Source: a virus
Length of the DNA stretch: 30,922 bases
IMG/VR virus record: IMGVR_UViG_3300005613_000282
Coordinates: 1-30,922 of that record
Reading direction: 5' to 3' (one strand)
The notes beneath the pieces were generated by a model. The model was not told the origin of the DNA. It saw nothing but the letters and a program-made list of their open reading frames with translations, and ran no database searches. Positions within the stretch are counted from its first letter, which is position 1; the number at the start of each line of letters is the position of its first letter. Positions 869 to 30,922 of the stretch are shown here, one piece after another. A program made the translations under genes and the position numbers.

Positions 869-2140
869 ATGGCTAACTCGTTTTCCAAGGAAGAGCGCGT
901 TGCGTTCGAGGATCTCCTCGAAGGCTTCAACGATGCCCTGATCCTTTCCCGCAACGTGAGCGTGTACAACACGGATTCCGCAATGATGGAGCGCGCACGC
1001 GACACCATCTGGCGTCCGATGCCCTACATCGCTCAGTCCATCAACGCTACCGCTGGTAGCTCCATCGCTGGTTCCTACCAGGACATGACCCAGCTTTCTG
1101 TGCCCGCTACCCTGGGCTACAGCAAGGCCGTCCCCTGGACGATGACCACGCTGGAACTGCGTGACGCTCTGCAAGAGGGTCGCCTCGGCACGGCTGCACG
1201 TCAGAAGCTTGCTTCCGACATCAACACCGCCGTCCTCGACGTTGCCGCTAACCAGGGCACGCTCGTTGTGACCACCGCCACCCCGGCTGGTGACTACGAC
1301 GACGTGGCTCTCTGCGACAGCCTCATGAACGAGCAAGGTGTGCCGGACTTCGACCGCTACCTGGCCCTCTCCAGCCGTGACTACAACGGCATGGCAGGGA
1401 ACCTGGCAGCAGCTACGCGCTCCTTCGGGAACGCCAAGTCTGACTCCGCCTACGAGCGTAGCCAGGTGGGTATGGTCGCCGGCTTCGACACCTACAAGCT
1501 CGACGTGGCTAAGCGGATCACGGCTCAGGGCGCTACCCCCACGGTCGACACGACCTCCGGCGCGATTGTGAACTACGTTCCGCAGGCAACCTCGACCGCT
1601 GTTGGTGGTGAGATCAACGTGGACAACCGCTATCAGCAGATCGCCATCTCCAGCACCGCTGGCCTGGCTGCTGGTGACGCCTTCGAGATCGCTGGCGTGG
1701 AAGCTGTGCATCACATCACGAAGAACAGCACGGGTCAGCTCAAGACCTTCCGTGTTATCTCCGTGGACAGCGGCACCCTGATGACCATCTCCCCGGCTAT
1801 CATCAGCGGCGGTGGCGGTACGGACGCTGAGCTTCAGTACAAGAACGTGGAGCTTGCTTCCACCTCTGGTACGGCGGCTATCAACTTCCTCAACACCAAG
1901 GCAGCTAACGTCAACTGCTTCTGGCAGCGGGACGCTCTCGAGCTTCTCCCTGGCCGGTTCGCAGTGCCCTCCGACGCTGGCACGGCTGTGATGCGTGCGA
2001 CCACCGATCAAGGTGTGGAGCTTGTCATGCAGAAGTTCTATGACATCGACTCCATGACGATCAAGTATCGTCTCGACACCCTCTTCGGGGTTTGCTGCAA
2101 GCAGCCTGAAATGGCCGGGATACTATTGTTTGATCAATAG
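869..2140 (+). CDS. Major capsid protein, P22 gp5-like (copy 1)
   Basis: HK97-fold coat protein of the P22 type, 423 aa (P22 gp5 is 430). Several segments align by eye with P22 gp5: DTIWRPM near residue 45, ANQGTLVVT near 127, and INVDNRYQQIAISSTAGL at 249-266. The last of these matches the start of the P22 insertion (I) domain, here about residues 223-345, followed by the conserved AAINFLNTKAANVNCFWQRDA stretch (only its two ends are highly conserved). The C-terminus (FGVCCKQPEMAG) also matches, so the protein appears full length. An AAAGGA Shine-Dalgarno lies 7 bases before the ATG. The last codons (ata cta ttg ttt gat caa) are AT-rich, unlike the rest of the gene, and adjoin a homing endonuclease gene. 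Confidence 0.93.
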   Translation: MANSFSKEERVAFEDLLEGFNDALILSRNVSVYNTDSAMMERARDTIWRPMPYIAQSINATAGSSIAGSYQDMTQLSVPATLGYSKAVPWTMTTLELRDALQEGRLGTAARQKLASDINTAVLDVAANQGTLVVTTATPAGDYDDVALCDSLMNEQGVPDFDRYLALSSRDYNGMAGNLAAATRSFGNAKSDSAYERSQVGMVAGFDTYKLDVAKRITAQGATPTVDTTSGAIVNYVPQATSTAVGGEINVDNRYQQIAISSTAGLAAGDAFEIAGVEAVHHITKNSTGQLKTFRVISVDSGTLMTISPAIISGGGGTDAELQYKNVELASTSGTAAINFLNTKAANVNCFWQRDALELLPGRFAVPSDAGTAVMRATTDQGVELVMQKFYDIDSMTIKYRLDTLFGVCCKQPEMAGILLFDQ

Positions 2141-2156
2141 GATGATACTAGACTAG

Positions 2157-2178
2157 GCATCGTGACATAGAGCGATGC
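2157..2178 (+). promoter_or_regulatory. Hairpin and direct repeat before the homing endonuclease gene
   Basis: A perfect 6-bp inverted repeat (GCATCG at 2157-2162, CGATGC at 2173-2178) with a 10-base loop lies in the short gap between the capsid gene and the endonuclease. The right arm is part of a direct repeat, GCGATGCTT, at 2172-2180 and 2188-2196, and the second copy contains the endonuclease ATG. The CGATGC arm could also pair from the start codon, which would block the ribosome site (GAGGTG, 2181-2186). Hairpins that limit translation are known for T4 homing endonuclease genes; a regulatory role here is inference. Confidence 0.4.
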
Positions 2179-2190
2179 TTGAGGTGCGCG

Positions 2191-3030
2191 ATGCTTAGTC
2201 TTTATCAACTGACGTTCCCGAATGGGAAGGTGTATATAGGGCAGACGGTTCGCAAAATGAGTGTCAGGCTGGCACAGCATAGGGCGGCTGCTAAACGCGG
2301 CAGTCCTCTTCCAGTGCATAACGCTTGGCGAAAACATGGTGAGCCGTCTGTCTCTATATTGAGTGAATACGATTGCCAGGACGCTTTGCATAAGGCCGAA
2401 ATTGCGGCCATTGAAAAGCTGAATTGTTTAGTCCCTAATGGGTATAACCTTTCTCTTGGCGGTGATACAGCTCCATCGAAATCCCCAGAGGTAGCGGCCA
2501 AAATAGCGGCCAAGGCCAAGGGCCGAAAGCATTTAGATACGTCGGTATGGTCGGAAGTACTGAAGATCCGATGGGAGGATGAGGGATACCGAGAAAAGGT
2601 GTCCGAAGGGCTCAAAGCCTCGTGGGATGATGACCGAAGGAAAGAGGCCTCGGAAAGAGCAAAGGCCATGTGGGCCAAGCGCAAGAAGGACGGATGGAAG
2701 ATGCCTGAAAGCACAAGGCAAAAGCTGTCCAAGAAGGATGTCTCGGAAGAGACGCGAGCCAAAATGAGTGAATCCGCAAAGGCTCGAGGAGCGCGGACGC
2801 ATTCAAGAGAGACAAGATTGAAAATTGCTGCTGCGACGACGGCGGCATGGAAGGATGAAGAGTTAAGGGCGCGCCGATTAGCGTCCATGATGGCAGCAAA
2901 AAAGAGGGCCAAGAATGCCGCTCAAGAAAGGTTACTCGAAGAAGACGATCAGCAAGAACATCAAGACCGAGATGAAGGCTGGTCGGCCTCAGAAGCAGGC
3001 GGTTGCGATTGCCCTCAATGTTGCTCGTAA
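2191..3030 (+). CDS. GIY-YIG homing endonuclease, free-standing
   Basis: Site-specific DNA endonuclease that spreads its own gene. The N-terminus carries a GIY-YIG core in variant form: LYQLT, then KVYIGQT (residues about 4-19), then an Arg/His segment ([13 protein letters not shown]), VHNAWRKHG and [10 protein letters not shown] long Lys/Arg-rich region of repeated NUMOD3-like DNA-binding motifs follows (for example KAKGRKH and [16 protein letters not shown]). I chose ATG 2191, which has GAGGTG 4 bases upstream, over the TTG at 2179. The C-terminal ~38 residues are read from the DNA of the next gene in another frame, so the native stop seems to have been lost or the element joined in-frame at insertion. 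Base composition is lower in GC than the neighbours, which fits a recent arrival. The flanks are too short for a group I intron. Confidence 0.88.
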
Positions 3031-3052
3031 GGCGAAGAAGAGGAAGAAGTGA
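2915..3052 (+). CDS. Lysine-rich 45-aa protein, DUF6496-like (copy 1)
   Basis: Tiny, strongly basic protein (13 Lys, 3 Arg, 1 Glu in 45 residues) beginning [17 protein letters not shown] and containing QKQAVAIAL. That motif resembles the KQAIAIALSEA core of the DUF6496 family, whose function is unknown. The gene overlaps the 3' end of the homing endonuclease in another frame and has an AAGAGG ribosome site about 6-7 bases upstream, inside the endonuclease coding region. Its reality is supported by a clear homologue at 16227-16361 in the same order next to the second capsid gene. It shares one base with the next gene (TGATG). A role in binding packaged DNA is only suggested by charge and position. 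Confidence 0.85.
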
Positions 3053-3201
3053 TGGCTAAGGGTCTCTACGCTAACGTTCACGCCAAACGCAAGCGCATCA
3101 AGGCAGGCTCTGGCGAGAAGATGCGGAAGCCTGGAGCGAAGGGCGCTCCCACGGCCAAGGCATTTAAGCAATCGGCCAAGACGGCGAAGAAGAAGAAATG
3201 A
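3052..3201 (+). CDS. Lysine-rich 49-aa protein (copy 1)
   Basis: Very basic protein (14 Lys, 3 Arg of 49) starting [17 protein letters not shown] and continuing EKMRKPG, GAPTAKAFKQSAKTAK. I recognise no named domain. It is translationally coupled at both ends (TGATG before, ATGA after). It is nearly identical in layout to 16361-16513, and the two genes share an exact 22-base stretch. Conservation next to two different capsid genes argues for a head-related role such as lining the capsid or neutralising DNA; that is inference. Confidence 0.85.
   Translation: MAKGLYANVHAKRKRIKAGSGEKMRKPGAKGAPTAKAFKQSAKTAKKKK
3115..3136 (+). repeat. 22-base exact repeat, copy 1 (partner 16430-16451)
   Basis: The same 22 bases occur at 3115-3136 and 16430-16451 in direct orientation, inside homologous small basic genes and encoding EKMRKPG. 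The flanks stay similar but diverge, mostly at third codon positions. It is a possible seed for recombination or for misassembly. Confidence 0.9.
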
Positions 3202-3506
3202 TCGACTTCCCGAATCAAGTATTCCGCGAGGGCGGCCCGCACTGGCACCCTCGCATTCGCGTTAAGTACGCGATCAAGGGTGTAAGCAATCAGGAAGAGC
3301 TTGACGCTGCGTTGAAAGACGGCTGGCGCCTCTCCCTGGAAGCTGTGATCGAGCCAGAACCAGTGATAGAATCCGAAGAGCCCCTAGACGATTCTCCCCC
3401 CACGAAGGAGGAGATGCTCCAGAAGGCTGAAGAACTCGGTTTGAAGATCGACAAGCGCTGGTCTGAGAAGACCCTGCTTGCCAAGATCGAGGAGGCTCTC
3501 CAGTGA
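3198..3506 (+). CDS. Small virion-region protein with C-terminal HeH/LEM-like helices
   Basis: 102-aa protein. The N-terminal half (FPNQVFREGGPHWHPRIRVKYAIKG ending in DGWRLSLE; key residues only) is of a type common in phage head-to-tail gene clusters. An acidic, proline-containing linker (about residues 51-67) follows. The C-terminal ~34 residues (TKEEMLQKAEELGLKIDKRW) look like the helix-extension-helix SAP/LEM-type fold found in many small phage proteins and in Rho. It starts at an ATGA overlap with the previous gene, and its stop overlaps the GTG of the next. The function is not known. Confidence 0.8.
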   Translation: MIDFPNQVFREGGPHWHPRIRVKYAIKGVSNQEELDAALKDGWRLSLEAVIEPEPVIESEEPLDDSPPTKEEMLQKAEELGLKIDKRWSEKTLLAKIEEALQ

Positions 3507-3982
3507 GCTATACAAAGCGCCAGTTCATCACCGCAGCCTTTGAAGAGATTGGGCTGGCCTCGTATGTCTTCGATCTACAGCCGGAGGATCTACAGACCGC
3601 CCTGCGCCGCTTAGACGCGATGATGGCGGAGTGGAACGGGAAGGGCCTACGGCTGGCGTATCCCATCCCCTTGAGCCCGGAGGACGCTGACCTTGATACG
3701 GAGACGACGGTCCCTGACTGGGCGAATGAGGCGGTTATCACGAACCTTGCTACGCGCCTTGCGTCGGGCTATGGAAAGACTGTTCCCCCCGACACCAAGA
3801 TGATCGCACGCCAGGGTTACAACACGATCATGTCACGCGCTGCCATGCCGCCCCAGCAACAGATGCCTCACTCCATGCCGCGTGGTGCAGGACGCAAGCC
3901 CTGGCGCTACGACGACCCCTTCATGCCCGTGCCTGACGCTCCTGTGGAGACTGGTGGCGAGGGCGAGCTAGACCTTTATTGA
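3503..3982 (+). CDS. Head-completion / tail-accessory factor, P22 gp4-like
   Basis: 159-aa protein resembling P22 gp4, which attaches below the portal ring, closes the packaged head and starts tail assembly. Matches by eye are in the N-terminal helical part: FEEIGLASYVFDLQPEDLQTA against the gp4 [23 protein letters not shown] region, and then LDAMMAEWNGKGLRLAYPIP, which has the gp4 MMAEW core. ANEAVITNLATRLASGYG at about 75-92 also fits. The C-terminus is proline-rich with RGAGRKPWRYDDPF. The start is GTG 3503, overlapping the upstream TGA, with GGAGG at 3491-3495. No gp10 or gp26 analogue follows, so the P22-type set is incomplete here. Confidence 0.85.
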   Translation: MSYTKRQFITAAFEEIGLASYVFDLQPEDLQTALRRLDAMMAEWNGKGLRLAYPIPLSPEDADLDTETTVPDWANEAVITNLATRLASGYGKTVPPDTKMIARQGYNTIMSRAAMPPQQQMPHSMPRGAGRKPWRYDDPFMPVPDAPVETGGEGELDLY

Positions 3983-3992
3983 GGGCTGAACG

Positions 3993-4442
3993 ATGCCGAC
4001 TATTAACCAACTGCCGACCGTTACGAGCCTCTCAGGCGGCGATCTCTTCGCGGTCTACAACACGGGGAACGGTGACGCCCGGAAGGTGTCTGCAACGGCC
4101 CTAGCGACGTTTGTGCAGCAGCAGTCTCCGACCAGCCAAGCAACGCAGTATGTGGCCCCCACGAGCGGCCTCACGGTGCCCTTACAGGCTGCTGGCGACC
4201 AGAACTGGGTAATCATGACCCCAGCCACTAGCCTCGCCTCTGTGACGCTTGTGATGCCTGCTGCAAGCTCTCTCTCAGACCGTACAGAGATCCTGGTAGT
4301 GACCACGCGGCAGATCAATAACGTCTCCTATACGCTCAACGGCGCCACGGCCATCTACGGCAATCCTGGCGTTCTGGCTGCGGAGGATTACTTCACCCTC
4401 AAGTATGACAACGGCCTGAACTCCTGGTTCCGGGTCGCGTAA
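3993..4442 (+). CDS. Tail-associated protein with fibre-type N-terminus
   Basis: 149 aa. The first ~45 residues (INQLPTVTSLSGGDLFAVYN, then ARKVSATALATF) follow the pattern seen at the N-terminus of many phage tail-fibre proteins and match the pattern of the 507-aa protein at 4889 (ISQLTDGTSFQAGDEAVVN). The remainder is beta-rich and ends in a YDNGLNSWFRVA segment. It lies between the gp4-like gene and the receptor-binding protein. It could be a short fibre, an adaptor, or a competitor for the same docking site. No enzyme motif is visible. Confidence 0.7.
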   Translation: MPTINQLPTVTSLSGGDLFAVYNTGNGDARKVSATALATFVQQQSPTSQATQYVAPTSGLTVPLQAAGDQNWVIMTPATSLASVTLVMPAASSLSDRTEILVVTTRQINNVSYTLNGATAIYGNPGVLAAEDYFTLKYDNGLNSWFRVA

Positions 4443-4452
4443 GGAGTAGATC

Positions 4453-4752
4453 ATGGAAATGACGACCTTTAAGCCGGGCTATGGCACCGGGTCTATCAAC
4501 GCGGTGACTGACGTTTCGGCTCAGGCAGATCTTACGCCAAACGCTCGGAGTGTATGCCTGACTAATCTAGGCGGTCAGACGGTTTGGGTTCGTTGCGGAG
4601 ACAGCTCTGTTGCGGCTACGACGGCGGACTATCCCCTTGTCTCTGGCTCCCAGGTGAGCATTGCGAAGGCTCGGGACCATAGCCACATTGCATTCATCTG
4701 CGCATCTGGCGAAAGCTCATCCCTTCATGTAATGGTCGGAGAGGGCTTCTAA
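4453..4752 (+). CDS. Hypothetical small beta-rich virion-region protein
   Basis: 99-aa protein with a good ribosome site (GGAG at 4442-4445). The sequence alternates hydrophobic and polar residues (SVCLTNLGGQTVWVRCGDS, then HIAFICASGES), suggesting a small beta-sandwich. It contains Cys at about 35, 48 and 82 but no obvious metal site. Its position among tail genes suggests a structural or decoration role. I do not recognise the family. Confidence 0.7.
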   Translation: MEMTTFKPGYGTGSINAVTDVSAQADLTPNARSVCLTNLGGQTVWVRCGDSSVAATTADYPLVSGSQVSIAKARDHSHIAFICASGESSSLHVMVGEGF

Positions 4753-4878
4753 GTGCTTGGTCGAACCAGGTTCAGGTTTCGATTCCGATCAGCGGGGACC
4801 TTCTTCCTCGGTTTTCTGTTGCTTGAAAACAACTTTGCCATTCTTTTGGAAGATGGCTTCAAGATTGAGCTAGAGTAG
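4753..4878 (+). CDS. 41-aa ORF with LLE-rich repeats
   Basis: A GTG-started frame lies directly behind the previous stop (TAA then GTG), with GGAGAGG at 4739-4745 as a possible ribosome site. The product is basic at first (RTRFRFRFRSAG), then repeats a hydrophobic-acidic pattern (FLLLENNFAILLEDGFKIEL). Similar LLLE/ILLEDG patterns occur in small proteins beside phage tail genes. It fills an otherwise empty gap in a tightly packed operon, which supports it. The GTG start and small size keep confidence moderate. Confidence 0.5.
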   Translation: MLGRTRFRFRFRSAGTFFLGFLLLENNFAILLEDGFKIELE

Positions 4879-4888
4879 GGGCTCCGAT

Positions 4889-6412
4889 ATGTCTAACAAA
4901 AAGATTTCACAACTTACTGACGGCACCAGCTTCCAGGCTGGGGACGAGGCTGTTGTCAATCGAAGCGGGACTAACTTTAAGGTCGACCCGACCGTATTCC
5001 AGACGCTTACCGCCGAAGAGGCGACTATTGCAAAGCTAAACGTAGGCGCCAACCTCGCGTGGAACAGCTCGACCGACACCTACACGGCCAACACCACGCC
5101 TTCTACGGTCACCAAGATTCACGAAGGCATGAAGCGCTGCCTACTTCGCGACGACGGGACAGTGAACTACTACCTCGATCCCACGGACTCCACGCAGAAG
5201 CTGGATGGCACCTCGGCAACCCTTACGGGTGCTGACGGCAACGTGATGGTCGAGATTCCGCGCTTCTACTTCCGGCAAGTGAAAAACGGCAACACGACCA
5301 CTTGGGAAATCTCGGACGTTCCCTTGGCTGGCTATCAGCTCCACCCAGCCTTTTTCAAGAACGGCGAGATCGTGGACTATCGCTACATCGGCGCTTATGA
5401 CGCTGCTCTTAAATTTGAGCGCAGTATTACAGCAGTAGCAGACGCTGGCGGCGGAGATATCACAGTAACGACCTCTGCCCAACACCCGCTCTACGCGGGA
5501 GACACCGTGACTATTTCAGGTACTACCAGCTATGACGGCGACTATACGGTCGTCACTCGGGCAAGCGGTACTACCTTTACCGTAACGGCGGCGTTTGTTG
5601 CGACGGAAACGGGGACGGCGACGGGTTATGTCTCTGGCAAAAACCTCGACGATATGACGTCAAATATCGACACTTCAAACGACACTTTGGCGGCCATTTC
5701 AGGCCAATACCCCCTTGTCGGTGTGACTCGTGATGAGTGCCGCGACCTTGCAGCAAATGTGGGCACTGGCTTCCGCCAGCAGGATTTCTGGCTAACCTGC
5801 GCAGTCCAGATTCTGTACCTTGTGGAATACGGCACGTTTTACAGTCAGAACGAGCTTGGGGACGGGAATACCAACGGCTCTTATGTTGGCTCCTCCAGCA
5901 GCCAATCAGACAGCCCTCACACTGTAGCAGGGGCCTCAAACGCCTTGGGCAATGTTTCAACGGACGGCACCCAGCCTAGCGCAGGAGCGAAGCCGGGGAC
6001 GGCGTATATGTCCTATCGCGGCATTGAAAACTTCTTTGGCAACTGTTGGAATTGGGTTGACGGGTTCAACATCGGTATTGTTGTGGACCGTGACGCCTTC
6101 GTCTCAAACAACGATGCGGACTTTGCGGACAACACCTCAACAAACTATACCGATTTGGGTATAACGATGGCGTCGGCCAATGGTTATGTTCAAAACATTG
6201 CCGATGTGCCGGGGGCGTTTCTGCCGAATGACACAACTGGCGCGTCGTCAAGCACCTACCTTACGGACCAATTTTTCCAGAACACAGGTAACCGCGTTGC
6301 GCTTTTCGGCGGTAATGCGATTTATGGCGCGAGTGCCGGCGCTTTCGCTTGGAATGTGGGTCGTTCGTCTTCTTTTGCGACTCGTGATATCGGCGCGCGG
6401 CTCAGTTATTAA
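4889..6412 (+). CDS. Receptor-binding tail protein with C-type-lectin (FGE / DGR-target-like) domain
   Basis: 507 aa, modular. Residues 1-40 are a tail-attachment-type N-terminus. About 75-175 include IPRFYFRQVKNG and LHPAFFKNGEIVDYRYIGAY, typical of phage proteins carrying this lectin fold. About 177-250 form a beta-rich FCCH-like insert (DITVTTSAQHPLYAGDTVTI then DGDYTVV). About 265-507 form the lectin/formylglycine-enzyme-like fold, with CAVQILYLVEYGTFYSQN, RGIENFFGNCWNWVDGFNI and a terminal ALFGGNAIYGASAGAF...SSFATRDIGARLSY. The terminal pattern (LFGG, G..AG, W, SS, GAR) is the one seen in targets of diversity-generating retroelements such as Mtd. No reverse transcriptase or template repeat is visible in the window. 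Role: host recognition at the tail tip. Confidence 0.8.
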   Translation: MSNKKISQLTDGTSFQAGDEAVVNRSGTNFKVDPTVFQTLTAEEATIAKLNVGANLAWNSSTDTYTANTTPSTVTKIHEGMKRCLLRDDGTVNYYLDPTDSTQKLDGTSATLTGADGNVMVEIPRFYFRQVKNGNTTTWEISDVPLAGYQLHPAFFKNGEIVDYRYIGAYDAALKFERSITAVADAGGGDITVTTSAQHPLYAGDTVTISGTTSYDGDYTVVTRASGTTFTVTAAFVATETGTATGYVSGKNLDDMTSNIDTSNDTLAAISGQYPLVGVTRDECRDLAANVGTGFRQQDFWLTCAVQILYLVEYGTFYSQNELGDGNTNGSYVGSSSSQSDSPHTVAGASNALGNVSTDGTQPSAGAKPGTAYMSYRGIENFFGNCWNWVDGFNIGIVVDRDAFVSNNDADFADNTSTNYTDLGITMASANGYVQNIADVPGAFLPNDTTGASSSTYLTDQFFQNTGNRVALFGGNAIYGASAGAFAWNVGRSSSFATRDIGARLSY

Positions 6413-6423
6413 GGGAGTTGACC

Positions 6424-7101
6424 ATGAAAGTATCAAGCAACAATAAGCTCCCGACCTATCAAGTCATCGGGAACAAGCTGCGCATCCATTGGGATGCCAA
6501 GGAAGTTACGAAAGAGACCGACGAAGGTACGGAAGTGTTCTGGGAGCAGGAAGAAGCCCTAGTGCCTGTCACAGCCTCGCGGTCGATGATCATCGAAGCA
6601 ATCATGGCGACCAAGTACCCCACGCCGGGGGCGGAATTTGCAGCCTTGTCAAATGGTTCTGAGAGCGTAGCAGAACATCAAGCCATGCGTGATTTGGCTA
6701 AGAGTCTATGCGACATGGAAGCCATCAAGGCTGAGGCAGAACGCGCCTCGTTGTTTGAGCGGCAGCTTAACGAATACCAAATTGCCGTAGCACGGCTGTC
6801 TCAATACGTCCTCTCAGAAGGCTTATCGGAAGTCACCGAGATGCAGCAGGGCGAGCAGAAGGTAGACGAGGAAGGTATGCCGGTGTTTGACGAGGATGGC
6901 CTTGTTTATGAAATGGTCGAGGTAGTTATCCGCCCCGCCATCGAACCCCTAGAGCCTACGGTAGAAGAAACCGTGTACGACGAGGACGGCAACGCAACGA
7001 CTCAGACCGTGGCTAATCCGTTAATCGTTAAGGACGAGGCCGAGCGCAAAGCAGCTCAGGCTCTTATTAATTCTACTCCGACTAATGTAAAGGAGTTCTG
7101 A
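6424..7101 (+). CDS. Hypothetical protein downstream of the receptor-binding gene
   Basis: 225 aa, mostly hydrophilic and acidic. The N-terminal part (YQVIGNKLRIHWDAKEV) looks folded. The middle is helical (about 75-140). The C-terminal third has extended acidic segments with two DEDG motifs (VFDEDGLVYEMVEVVIRP and VYDEDGNATTQTV). The start is ATG 6424 with AAGGGAG at 6411-6417; the TTG at 6418 is inside the spacer. It sits directly behind the lectin-type gene, where tail-fibre chaperones or accessory proteins are often encoded, so an assembly role is plausible but unproven. Codon use becomes AT-rich in its last ~20 codons. Confidence 0.75.
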   Translation: MKVSSNNKLPTYQVIGNKLRIHWDAKEVTKETDEGTEVFWEQEEALVPVTASRSMIIEAIMATKYPTPGAEFAALSNGSESVAEHQAMRDLAKSLCDMEAIKAEAERASLFERQLNEYQIAVARLSQYVLSEGLSEVTEMQQGEQKVDEEGMPVFDEDGLVYEMVEVVIRPAIEPLEPTVEETVYDEDGNATTQTVANPLIVKDEAERKAAQALINSTPTNVKEF

Positions 7102-7397
7102 TGTTATTTCTTCAAAGTGCACAAACAAGTAACGACACCGGAAGCTGGTTCAAGGTTAACACCAGCGGTGAATACGTGTTCCGGTACTTCGGAACCTTTA
7201 ACGGTTGTAATATCACACTACAGACAAAAGCTGAAGATGAAGCTGGTAATGTAGAAGGTATTCCTGTTCCTAATACAAACCAAGACTCTGCTTGGGTAGC
7301 ATTGATTTACCTTGAAGCTGGGGCAGAGGTTCGTGCTGTAGTGGCTAGTGCTGGTGCTAGCACTAATGTTGATGTGACACTAAACAAGGCGCATTAA
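7101..7397 (+). CDS. Hypothetical small tail-region protein
   Basis: 98 aa, beta-rich (GEYVFRYFGTFNGCNITLQT, then AWVALIYLEAGAEVRAVV), with no motif I recognise. The start overlaps the previous stop (TGATG) with AAGGAG at 7090-7095. The second half of the gene has the AT-rich codon use of the following region. Size, fold type and position beside a tail spike resemble the 99-aa protein at 4453, but I see no convincing sequence match. Confidence 0.7.
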   Translation: MLFLQSAQTSNDTGSWFKVNTSGEYVFRYFGTFNGCNITLQTKAEDEAGNVEGIPVPNTNQDSAWVALIYLEAGAEVRAVVASAGASTNVDVTLNKAH

Positions 7398-16208: not shown

Positions 16209-16226
16209 TGATCCTCTGGAGGAACT

Positions 16227-16361
16227 ATGCCTCTTAAGAAAGGTGCATCTAAAAAGACTATTAGTGCAAACATTAAACGAGAGATCAAGGCTGGTAAACC
16301 TCAGAAGCAAGCAGTAGCTATTGCTCTTGAGACAGCACGTAGATCTAAGAAGAGGAAGTAA
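16227..16361 (+). CDS. Lysine-rich 44-aa protein, DUF6496-like (copy 2)
   Basis: Homologue of the 2915-3052 product: starts MPLKKGASKKTISANIK, contains [14 protein letters not shown] and ends KKRK. It has an excellent ribosome site (GGAGG at 16218-16222). It overlaps the next gene by one base (TAATG), as its counterpart does (TGATG). The function is unknown; strong positive charge and position after a capsid gene suggest contact with DNA or the capsid interior. Confidence 0.85.
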   Translation: MPLKKGASKKTISANIKREIKAGKPQKQAVAIALETARRSKKRK

Positions 16362-16513
16362 TGGCTAAGAGACCGGGACTGTACGCAAACATCCACGCTA
16401 AGCGTAAGCGTATCAAGGAAGGCTCTGGAGAGAAGATGCGGAAGCCTGGAGAGAAAGGCGCTCCTACTGCTAAAGCATTCAAGCAATCTGCTAAGACAGC
16501 TAAGAGGAAATAA
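16361..16513 (+). CDS. Lysine-rich 50-aa protein (copy 2)
   Basis: Homologue of the 3052-3201 product: MAKRPGLYANIHAKRKRIKE, then GSGEKMRKPGEKGAPTAKAF and KQSAKTAKRK. It differs mainly by a two-residue insertion (RP) after MAK and scattered substitutions. It contains the 22-base repeat shared with copy 1. There is no known domain. Confidence 0.85.
   Translation: MAKRPGLYANIHAKRKRIKEGSGEKMRKPGEKGAPTAKAFKQSAKTAKRK
16430..16451 (+). repeat. 22-base exact repeat, copy 2 (partner 3115-3136)
   Basis: Direct repeat of 3115-3136 in the homologous gene, about 13.3 kb away. Confidence 0.9.
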
Positions 16514-21159: not shown

Positions 21160-21488
21160 TTATAGAGTTCACTGATGAAGGCGAGAATGTAGTCCTTGAA
21201 GACTCTGAGCGGATGACGCTAGGGGTAGAGATCTACGGACCTGTAGCTCAGTTTCACTTTACTCCACATAAGTGGAGTGTAAAGCACTTCAAGACCTACA
21301 AGAAAGTCTTAGATCACTGGGAAAGATGGCTCAAGGACAAAGGTGTGAAGTTAGTCCTAGAGTTCTTTGAGCCTGAAAGCCTAGACAAGATGAAGTTAAC
21401 TAAGATGTTTGGTTTTACAGAAGTACATATCAACAAAGAATTACTTGAAGAACCTATGGAATATGTTTGTTTAGGAAAAATCCTATGA
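21156..21488 (+). CDS. GNAT-like internal virion protein (T7 gp13 analogue)
   Basis: 110 aa from GTG 21156, which overlaps the nozzle stop (GTGA) and has GGAG at 21146-21149. The sequence HKWSVKHFKTYKKVLDHWER, then GVKLVLEFFEPESLDKMKLT and KMFGF follows the end of an N-acetyltransferase fold (helix, strand, terminal LGF-type turn). T7 gp13 lies at the same place, between nozzle and gp14, and also has a GNAT-like ending. The first half is too divergent to assign acetyl-CoA binding, so catalytic activity is doubtful. Confidence 0.6.
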   Translation: MIIEFTDEGENVVLEDSERMTLGVEIYGPVAQFHFTPHKWSVKHFKTYKKVLDHWERWLKDKGVKLVLEFFEPESLDKMKLTKMFGFTEVHINKELLEEPMEYVCLGKIL

Positions 21489-22222
21489 GTGACGTAGATT
21501 TCAAAGACATTGCCACTGCTGCTGCAGTTATTGGTGCTGCAGCCTTGACTGGTGGGGCTGCTCTTGGTGCATTTGGTGCAGGTGCTGGTGCTACAGCTAC
21601 CGGAACTGCCGCAGGTGCAGCGGGAGCTGCTGGTACAGCAGGTGCAGCAGGTGCTACTGGAGCAGCAGGAGCGGCAGGTGCCACAGGTGCTACAGCCGCT
21701 GGCGCTACTGGTACAGCAGCAGCCGCAGGTGGGGCAGCGGCAGGAGGTGCTGCTGCGGCTCCTACGATTGCAGGGTTAACTGCTGGACAGTTAACTACAG
21801 CAGGGTTAACTGCTACTACCCTTGGTACTGGGGGTATGAGTATTGCTGCCCAGCAGGAGGCTGCACAGCAGGCTCGTGTGGCTAATGCAGCTAGACAGAG
21901 GGTGTCTGAGATCCAGAACCGTAGAGCCCGTCTGAGGACCATTGAGGAGCAAAGAATCCGTGGTGCTCAGGTACAGCAGGCTGGCGTGGGTGCAGGTATT
22001 GGCACTGAAACCAGTACGGTACAGGGCACTGTAGCTTCTCTGAGATCCCAAGCAGCACAGAACATCGGTATGCAGCAGACCTTAGCTGCAGGTGAGAGAA
22101 GTATCTTTGGTGCAGAGCAGAGTGCAGCCAGAGCTGGAGCTAGAGCAGACCTGTTCGGAGCAGCATCTCAGATTGGTGCTGACCTAGGCGGCTATACTCC
22201 TATCCGTAATCTGTTTGGATGA
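21485..22222 (+). CDS. Gly/Ala-rich ejection protein (T7 gp14-like)
   Basis: 245 aa from ATG 21485 (ATGA overlap). Residues 10-95 are almost entirely Gly, Ala and Thr, including nine consecutive Gly-X-Y triplets at 44-70. After APTIAGLTAGQ comes a long helical half (about 115-215) with AAQQEAAQQARVANAARQRV and RTIEEQRIRGAQVQQAGVGA. Size, order (nozzle, gp13-like, this, two large proteins) and the helix-rich second half fit T7 gp14, which is ejected and forms a pore in the outer membrane. The Gly/Ala tract could be the membrane-inserting part. Confidence 0.7.
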   Translation: MSDVDFKDIATAAAVIGAAALTGGAALGAFGAGAGATATGTAAGAAGAAGTAGAAGATGAAGAAGATGATAAGATGTAAAAGGAAAGGAAAAPTIAGLTAGQLTTAGLTATTLGTGGMSIAAQQEAAQQARVANAARQRVSEIQNRRARLRTIEEQRIRGAQVQQAGVGAGIGTETSTVQGTVASLRSQAAQNIGMQQTLAAGERSIFGAEQSAARAGARADLFGAASQIGADLGGYTPIRNLFG

Positions 22223-29438: not shown

Positions 29439-30407
29439 TTAGACTACAACAGACCAGTCAAGCTCGCCAGTCATACCCTTCTGTACGTAGTCAGTAACCC
29501 TACGCTCAAAGAAGTTTGTATCCCTAGCGCCCATCGTGATACCAGTTAACCACTCCATGCTAGCTGGCATTTTCTTTACGTTGAAGTTCCCCTTCAGTCC
29601 TAGCTGGATAAGCCTACGATCTGCAAGGAACCGCACGTACTGCTTAAGATCATCAGCAGTGAAGCCATCAGGCTCATAGATCTCAAAGGCTTTGTTGATG
29701 AAACGATCCTCATGCTTGATAACTTCTCTAGCGATATCATAGATACGCTTCTTAAGTTCATCATTAACAATCCGAGGATGCTCGTGAGTGAACTCGCGGA
29801 ACAGCTTAGCCTCTCCCTCTACGTGCAGTGACTCGTCACGCAGTGACCACTCCACTACCTCACACATCCCTAGCATCTTAGCCTGTTGCTTGAACCACAG
29901 CAGCATAGCAAAGCTGCCAAATAAGGAGACTCCCTCCATAAATACCTGCTTAGCTAGGGTGTACGCCATGTCGCTCAGCGTAGTACCAGCAGGCTCAGTC
30001 ATGAAGTCCCACTTATCTTTCATGTGCTTGTAGTCAAGGAACGCATGCCACTCTGCATCAGGGAACCGTAGGGTTTCAGGGATCAGAGCGTACGCACGTT
30101 GGTGAACTGATTCACGGTTTGCGAAACTTGTCAAGAGATTACTGATCTCATTGTTCTTGAAGTACGGAATCAGTACGTTCTTGTAAGTTTCACCTACAGC
30201 TACATCAGACTGGGTGAACAGGCGTAGCACGTTAGTGATGAACTCTTTCTCACTGTCCGTGATAGTCCCATCGTTCCACTGCTGTACGTCTTGCTGCAGG
30301 TTGCACTCTTTCTCATGCCAGTGCAGTTCAATCTCGTGGGTCTGCGTCATCTCCACAGCCCAGGGGTAAGTAAATGGTCTGTATGTCTGGTTAACTTCAG
30401 TTAGCAT
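29439..30407 (-). CDS. nrdB: Ribonucleotide reductase class I, beta (radical) subunit
   Basis: About 322 aa, makes the tyrosyl radical that the alpha subunit uses to reduce ribonucleotides for phage DNA synthesis. Metal-ligand and radical motifs are present: RESVHQRAY (E, H at +3, radical Tyr at +7, as in E. coli E115/H118/Y122), KQVFMEGVSLFGSFAMLLWF and RDESLHVEGEAKLF. The first ligand is probably in FTQSDVAVGE. The C-terminus (NFFERRVTDYVQKG, then WSVVV) matches the subunit-binding tail. Two starts are possible: 30407 (overlapping the previous stop by 7 bases, weak GGA upstream) or 30419 (19-base overlap). The alpha subunit is not in the window. Confidence 0.93.
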   Translation of the reverse strand: MLTEVNQTYRPFTYPWAVEMTQTHEIELHWHEKECNLQQDVQQWNDGTITDSEKEFITNVLRLFTQSDVAVGETYKNVLIPYFKNNEISNLLTSFANRESVHQRAYALIPETLRFPDAEWHAFLDYKHMKDKWDFMTEPAGTTLSDMAYTLAKQVFMEGVSLFGSFAMLLWFKQQAKMLGMCEVVEWSLRDESLHVEGEAKLFREFTHEHPRIVNDELKKRIYDIAREVIKHEDRFINKAFEIYEPDGFTADDLKQYVRFLADRRLIQLGLKGNFNVKKMPASMEWLTGITMGARDTNFFERRVTDYVQKGMTGELDWSVVV

Positions 30408-30781
30408 AGTGTTTTCCATAGTTCGCAGTAGTGAATAATCTTGTCGATGTCTTCCTTGGTTGCATCTTTCTTACCTGCACGGCAGGTGTACTTAACAATG
30501 CAGCCTTGGATAAAGTCCAGCTTGTTCTTCTGGATGAACTCAATAGGTTGGATTTCAAAGTCCTTGTAGTGACTACCACCTACCTGTTTCTCCAGAGGAT
30601 TTGCGGAGTTAATGCTGGTAATCTCCGCATCAACTCTGTTCCCCCTGTAGTCGGTGAAGTACTTACCTTCACTAACGTAGTACATCCCAGGGTAATCTGT
30701 GCTGATATCCGTAACCATGTCTTCCTCCAAGTGTGCCCCCACATTCACACTAGGTGTCACACCTAGTTTCTTTGGGTTCAT
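30401..30781 (-). CDS. DUF3310 protein (T7 gp1.7-like family)
   Basis: 126 aa. The C-terminal half has the full DUF3310 signature: KQVGGSHYKDFEIQPIEFI, then LDFIQGCIVKYTCRAGKK and KEDIDKIIHYCELWK. Family members are widespread in phages near nucleotide-metabolism genes; T7 gp1.7 of this family is a nucleotide kinase, but activity cannot be assumed here. The N-terminal ~65 residues are variable. I chose ATG 30781 because AAGGA (30788-30792 on the minus strand) is 6 bases away, while ATG 30787 abuts it. It is cotranscribed with nrdB. Confidence 0.9.
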   Translation of the reverse strand: MNPKKLGVTPSVNVGAHLEEDMVTDISTDYPGMYYVSEGKYFTDYRGNRVDAEITSINSANPLEKQVGGSHYKDFEIQPIEFIQKNKLDFIQGCIVKYTCRAGKKDATKEDIDKIIHYCELWKTLC

Positions 30782-30783
30782 TA

Positions 30784-30922
30784 TCATTCCTTATATACCG
30801 TGCCCCAGGTAGCTGGGAAGTTAGTCTCTGATTTTATAGATCCTTCTCTGATATCTTGCTTCCATTTGATTTTCTCTTCGCGGTTATTAGATCCTGCCCT
30901 ACCAATACCAACACCACGTTCA
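30784..30922 (-). CDS. Partial hypothetical gene at the right edge (C-terminal 45 aa)
   Basis: An open minus-strand frame enters from the right edge and ends at TGA 30784-30786, two bases before the DUF3310 start. The visible product is hydrophilic (GVGIGRAGSNNREEKIKWKQ, then DIREGSIKSETNF, ending PATWGTVYKE). The DUF3310 ribosome site lies inside its last codons (AAG GAA), a normal coupled arrangement, which supports a real gene. I do not recognise the family. Confidence 0.6.
   Translation of the reverse strand, partial: ERGVGIGRAGSNNREEKIKWKQDIREGSIKSETNFPATWGTVYKE

Follow-up and report, generated by a model that had tools for sequence, protein, structure and literature searches.

The window analyzed here is a viral stretch of 30,922 nt, and on its + strand it carries an ORF of 507 amino acids at 4889–6412 (from the ORF list), annotated as a putative DGR-target tail or receptor-binding protein by its PHROG and fold matches and its viral relatives. 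A first-pass annotation had placed this gene at 5681–6412; the end was right, whereas the start falls within the longer frame. The product matches PHROG 5302 ("tail protein," E = 4.8e-85), and its relatives comprise 47 viral loci in IMG/VR. Among annotated phages only distant relatives were found, for example Methanosarcina virus MetMV (34%), and no matches were obtained against Pfam and NCBIfam, or by phmmer against the PDB sequences. A search of one genome per bacterial or archaeal species returned just five matches, all of them distant and partial and all in Bacteroidales MAGs, and therefore pointed to no host or prophage donor. The motifs previously quoted for this protein (ALFGGNAIYGASAGAF, W, SS, GARLSY, and RGIENFFGNCWNWVDGF) are all found in the sequence. 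The last of these is the C-type-lectin core motif, of the type seen in formylglycine-generating enzymes (FGE), at 6020–6070 (+ strand), and several of its residues are invariant or nearly so across the aligned relatives. Residues 176–247 (5414–5629, + strand) form an insert of ~72 amino acids, modeled with low confidence (pLDDT <50). Among the aligned relatives it is present only in L003–L005, where the DNA is ~75% identical, and from the alignment it looks like an exchanged domain.

The fold was approached with an AlphaFold2 model built on 22 sequences, which had a mean pLDDT of 66, with the lectin domain mostly at 70–93. The model matched TaqVP, the DGR variable protein of Thermus aquaticus (PDB 5VF4), with a Z of 24.5 over 268 residues, and also FGEs and Mtd of Bordetella phage BPP-1, both with a Z of about 10. 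In addition, the sequence profile of the family detects TaqVP (E = 6.5e-6), and an Mtd_N domain is present in one aligned relative. The protein is thus predicted to have a C-type-lectin fold of the FGE/Mtd type, and these matches bear out the variable-protein fold that had been proposed from the sequence alone.

The 3' end of the gene could be compared with a template through L001, a related locus of 4.3 kb that is 98.6% identical to window positions 2915–6412. Shortly 3' of its own target variable region (VR), L001 has a second, template-like copy of 6292–6399, rich in AAT codons. The window VR (6292–6399, + strand) has 26 mismatches to this copy when the full copy is used, and 20 of them lie on template adenines. 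Because the last ~30 nt of the copy encode DRWIGARLAF-stop, a VR-like end, the statistics were restricted to its reliable part, 6292–6379 (88 nt with 26 adenines), the template in every case being that of L001 and not the window's own. Within this part, 19 of the 21 mismatches of the window VR are at template A (p = 1.3e-11), as are all 22 mismatches of the L001 VR (p = 5e-17). Between the two VRs there are 18 differences in 108 sites, of which 15 are at template adenines, compared with 14 differences in the 1416 sites of the gene outside the VR, 12 of which are at third codon positions (Fisher p = 1e-13 for VR against the rest of the gene). Adenine-specific mismatches to the L001 template and a VR that diverges much faster than its flanks are the marks of a DGR target, and the earlier suggestion that this gene is one is supported by the adenine-specific differences both between VR and template repeat (TR) and between the VRs.

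The codons tell the same story. The template has nine Asn (AAY) codons, starting at 6314, 6320, 6323, 6353, 6359, 6362, 6374, 6380, and 6386 (6314–6388, + strand), for which the window encodes N I Y N G R F T D. The third base is T in nine of nine, as expected if AAT had been altered solely at its two adenines. It had been remarked that few of the variable codons are AAC or AAT, and indeed two of the nine are still AAT, the others being altered at position 1 or 2. The templates of eight relatives have a closely agreeing register, like HVTHFGGNANNG...NVNNSSxNANRNIG. At the 3' end of the VR is a GC-rich segment, TCGGCGCGCGGCTC (6390–6403, + strand), which resembles in position and composition the GC14 and IMH described for the BPP-1 DGR (PMC12875486) and by analogy may have their function. 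These comparisons show that 6292–6399 is a genuine DGR variable region. Since the template mismatches are nearly confined to adenines and the VR differs in the near-identical L001 gene, two VR alleles attributable to mutagenic retrohoming are seen on what is nearly one and the same gene.

No complete DGR cassette was found in cis: searches with RVT_1, with a profile of the family's own reverse transcriptases (RTs), and with template queries detected neither a TR nor a DGR-type RT in the contig. The first-pass annotation had likewise seen no RT and no template repeat in the window; both RT queries gave zero matches there, and the template repeats of three relatives match it at the VR itself or nowhere. 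It had pointed to an RT and a near-copy of 6290–6400 as the sequences to look for; neither is in the window, and L001 has a near-copy with A-specific mismatches. At 6410–6423 (+ strand) of the window, the VR stop codon is directly followed by TAAGGGAGTTGACC, the next gene's ribosome-binding region, the sequence of the junction being TAAGGGAGTTGACCATG. This next gene, a small ORF at 6424–7101 (+ strand), is homologous over its first ~95 amino acids to a gene of 80–115 amino acids found 3' of the target or of the RT in relatives; after about residue 95 it is unrelated to their small genes, and it is a fusion near the composite junction described below. It had no convincing protein-family match, a sequence search with it returned no relatives, and scanning for the exact pattern of its start turned up L001 only, so the true downstream DNA of this phage is not traceable past 6.7 kb. 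With nothing between the VR stop and the small ORF's ribosome-binding region, gene order indicates that the usual slot is without TR and RT. Two of the options first raised had been an RT outside the window and a fossil target, and the latter, in the sense of a target left orphaned, is preferred over the former, since the normal TR/RT slot is visible and empty.

Gene content and homologies show the contig to be composite, with two phages meeting near 6.7 kb; the join may represent misassembly or natural mosaicism. The left part (1–6.7 kb, GC about 0.56) has a P22-type coat (PF11651), scaffold, and neck genes, and the right part (7.3–30.9 kb, GC 0.44) has a T7-type terminase, connector/portal, scaffold, and second coat; the whole contig has two coat modules and two scaffold-like modules. 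Homology to L001 stops at 6701 and near-identity to L056 starts at 7311, which places the zone of passage from the P22-type to the T7-type phage at 6702–7310. Left-type relatives match up to the target region only (one that was checked has a P22 portal upstream), and for right-type relatives the match begins no earlier than 7311 or 9837. The idea that the entire right half goes together with the target gene was rejected, as relatives of either half are without the other half's coat and portal. It follows that the absence of an RT from the right 24 kb is uninformative on the left phage; the empty slot itself lies in the left part.

Several other features of the window were recorded. A GIY-YIG homing endonuclease gene (2179–3030) lies 3' of the P22-type coat; L001 is without it, window positions 2116–2914 corresponding there to ~79 nt between flanks that are 98.6–99.5% identical. 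Behind each coat gene are two adjacent small basic ORFs (2918–3200 and 16226–16511, DNA ~77% identical), with products MPLKKGxSKKTISxNIK... and MAK..GLYANxHAKRKRIKxGSGEKMRKPG.... In the right phage, a Gly/Ala/Thr-rich repeat with a period of 9 nt (21551–21771) lies inside the ORF 21467–22222, and two − strand genes occupy the right end (29439–30787), the longer of which, read by eye, resembles a ribonucleotide reductase small subunit.

L001 must also be read with care. It has several homopolymer-type indels, and it was rejected as an RT-less locus with a clean VR and TR, for the 3' end of its template is VR-like and the small ORF 3' of the template copy is ~9% different from that of the window. 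It is better read as a recombinant, or an assembly join, of cassette-bearing and cassette-less genotypes, and either reading implies the existence of both.

Both genotypes are also found across the family, where RVT_1 was detected in the records of 23 of 46 relatives. Complete relatives have the order target-VR, TR, RT, and small ORF, and in the relatives examined the RT often abuts or overlaps the start of a conserved ORF of ~100 amino acids. Their RTs have the motifs IGNYTSQ and YRYCDD and match PHROG 1423 (reverse transcriptase). Graded remains occur in other members: a template without RT in L024, a truncated template without RT in L015 and L037, an intact template repeat beside a dead, frame-broken RT stump in L010 (11417–11598, with the first ~21 and last ~46 amino acids), and a homing-type endonuclease (HNH_3 plus AP2, 2245–2724) occupying the TR/RT slot in L008. 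L003–L005 and L018–L022 have neither template nor RT, and several relatives have the compact VR-to-small-ORF order of the window. In a phylogeny of the target from which the VR was left out, with the long branch L046 kept out of the argument, the RT label needs about six changes, at least three of them forced by well-supported branches. The cassette therefore appears, from these alignments and the tree, to be missing from the slot in several other lineages of the target family.

Longer records of cassette-less relatives were searched as well. The record of L022 and L032 (G022; 40.9 kb, classed as linear) has ends that overlap by 1.96 kb at 99.9% and, being terminally redundant, represents a nearly complete genome of ~38.8 kb, the only one to close among the records checked for terminal repeats; no RT was found in it. 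Nor was an RT found in cassette-less records of 29.9, 31.4, 36.1, and 87.3 kb, and the search of the long records for remote templates revealed no second copy other than the truncated template of G036. The VRs of G022 and L025 have third-base drift, which should be the look of a long-orphaned VR; the window VR has none.

We consider it probable, at roughly 0.7, that the gene encodes a receptor-binding protein of the phage, its fold that of a C-type lectin (FGE-like), and that its DGR-made 3' end is now an orphaned VR, the cassette being gone from its slot. This explanation is held to be the best for the window because the slot is empty and no RT is present in any of the longer cassette-less records. 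The cassette-less genotype would have arisen by deletion or recombination, in a population that presumably also holds cassette-bearing genotypes. The target protein would still bind the host surface through the VR face, and the VR, now an orphan, would be refreshed only by DNA exchange with cassette-bearing relatives or by an RT acting in trans.

That VRs may change after the cassette is lost is suggested by three cassette-less pairs, each of which has one same empty or truncated junction, so that the loss is shared by descent within the pair. The VR differences at positions 1–2 of template-Asn codons number 14 of 18 in L018/L021 (p = 4e-10), 14 of 24 in L011/L016 (p = 2e-7), and 9 of 15 in L015/L037 (p = 9e-5). 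As these are DGR-type sites, diversification, or the import of diversified VRs, continued after the loss. The source may be an RT encoded at another place in the genome, one from a different genome, or recombination with cassette-bearing relatives.

The first of these sources, applied to the window, would mean that the target is still diversified by a TR and RT elsewhere in the same phage genome, outside the contig. The composite nature of the contig, which leaves most of the left phage unseen, speaks for such an arrangement, as do the changes at DGR-type sites in the three pairs and the precedent of DGRs whose targets lie far away (PMC8144416, PMC3521204). The four long cassette-less records, however, have neither an RT nor, the truncated copy in G036 apart, a further template, and the nearly complete G022 genome has no RT, though its VR looks drifted. 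We therefore regard a remote cassette as unlikely.

Cassette-less VRs could instead be rewritten in trans, with the RT and TR supplied by another phage infecting the same cell, by a prophage, or by the host. The pair L015/L037 speaks for this: its VRs differ at 15 of 108 sites, with one difference or none per 100 nt across ~500 nt upstream and none in ~160 nt downstream, despite a truncated TR and an RT-less slot in both, and the differences extend past the end of the truncated template. There is also precedent, since a BPP-1 DGR acts on a target carried by another plasmid (PMC12875486). On the other hand, cassette-bearing phages of the same population could pass on VR alleles by homologous exchange, with an outcome that looks alike when the flanks are identical, some of the L015/L037 differences are at non-adenine sites, and the search of one genome per species yielded no donor. 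Action in trans is accordingly improbable as an explanation of these VRs, and it is equally doubtful that the receptor-binding tips of cassette-less phages are still being rewritten by DGRs encoded by other phages, prophages, or the host; if this were true, targeted hypermutation would be a shared good of the phage community.

An assembly artefact, with reads joined across VR and TR, could also have removed the TR and RT. The two coat and two scaffold-like modules, the phage-to-phage passage at ~6.7 kb, and L001, itself a TR/VR-like hybrid, would fit such an error. Yet the VR-specific 3' end of the window (GGCTCAGTTAT) directly abuts TAAGGGAGTT, and only the stop TAA is common with the TR copy, which is too short for a repeat-driven join. 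Moreover, in the 3' part of L001, too, TAAGGGAGTT follows a VR-like end, the genotype there being ~9% different, and the compact order recurs in several relatives, so an artefact has a low probability. Finally, that this lectin-like tail protein was never diversified by a DGR, another of the options raised at first, would agree with a window devoid of RT and TR but is effectively excluded by the adenine-specific VR/TR and VR/VR differences, by the VR-limited divergence, and by the TR and RT that adjoin the target in about half of the relatives.

Surveys find DGRs through the RT, so RT-less targets go uncounted, and a large DGR survey states that remote targets would escape its detection (PMC8144416). 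In a limited literature search we found no description of a single phage target family that has lost its cassette repeatedly. In the present family, targets seem to have outlived, or to live apart from, the cassette in several lineages, and the family is a naturally occurring setting in which to see what becomes of receptor diversity once the machine is lost: whether phages keep it, freeze it, or borrow it.

Among the nearest known systems are the complete-cassette relatives (for example, L006, L007, L009, L013, L017, L023, L026, L033, and L043), which have a target homologous to that of the window, the template register NANNG...NxNN.SSNANRNIG, and in many cases the same downstream small ORF, but which retain TR and RT between the VR and the downstream gene. 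A duplicated DGR that lost its RT and kept its targets is known from Pseudogulbenkiania sp. NH8B (DiGReF survey, PMC3521204); as here, distal targets stand beside a lost machine, in that case a strongly mutated RT, which the authors read as RT loss after duplication. That genome, however, has a second, working RT, and none is known for the window target. TaqVP has the fold in common over residues 56–507 of the window protein, has its VR likewise at the C terminus, and is found by the sequence profile, although the identity is ~20% and the gene in the window codes for a phage tail protein and has no adjoining cassette. With the BPP-1 DGR, the differences are that neither TR nor RT adjoins the window gene and that the N-terminal part of its product is unlike Mtd, even though one relative has Mtd_N; what the two would have in common is a phage receptor-binding protein with a C-terminal C-type-lectin VR (Z about 10) that bears the traces of adenine-specific rewriting.
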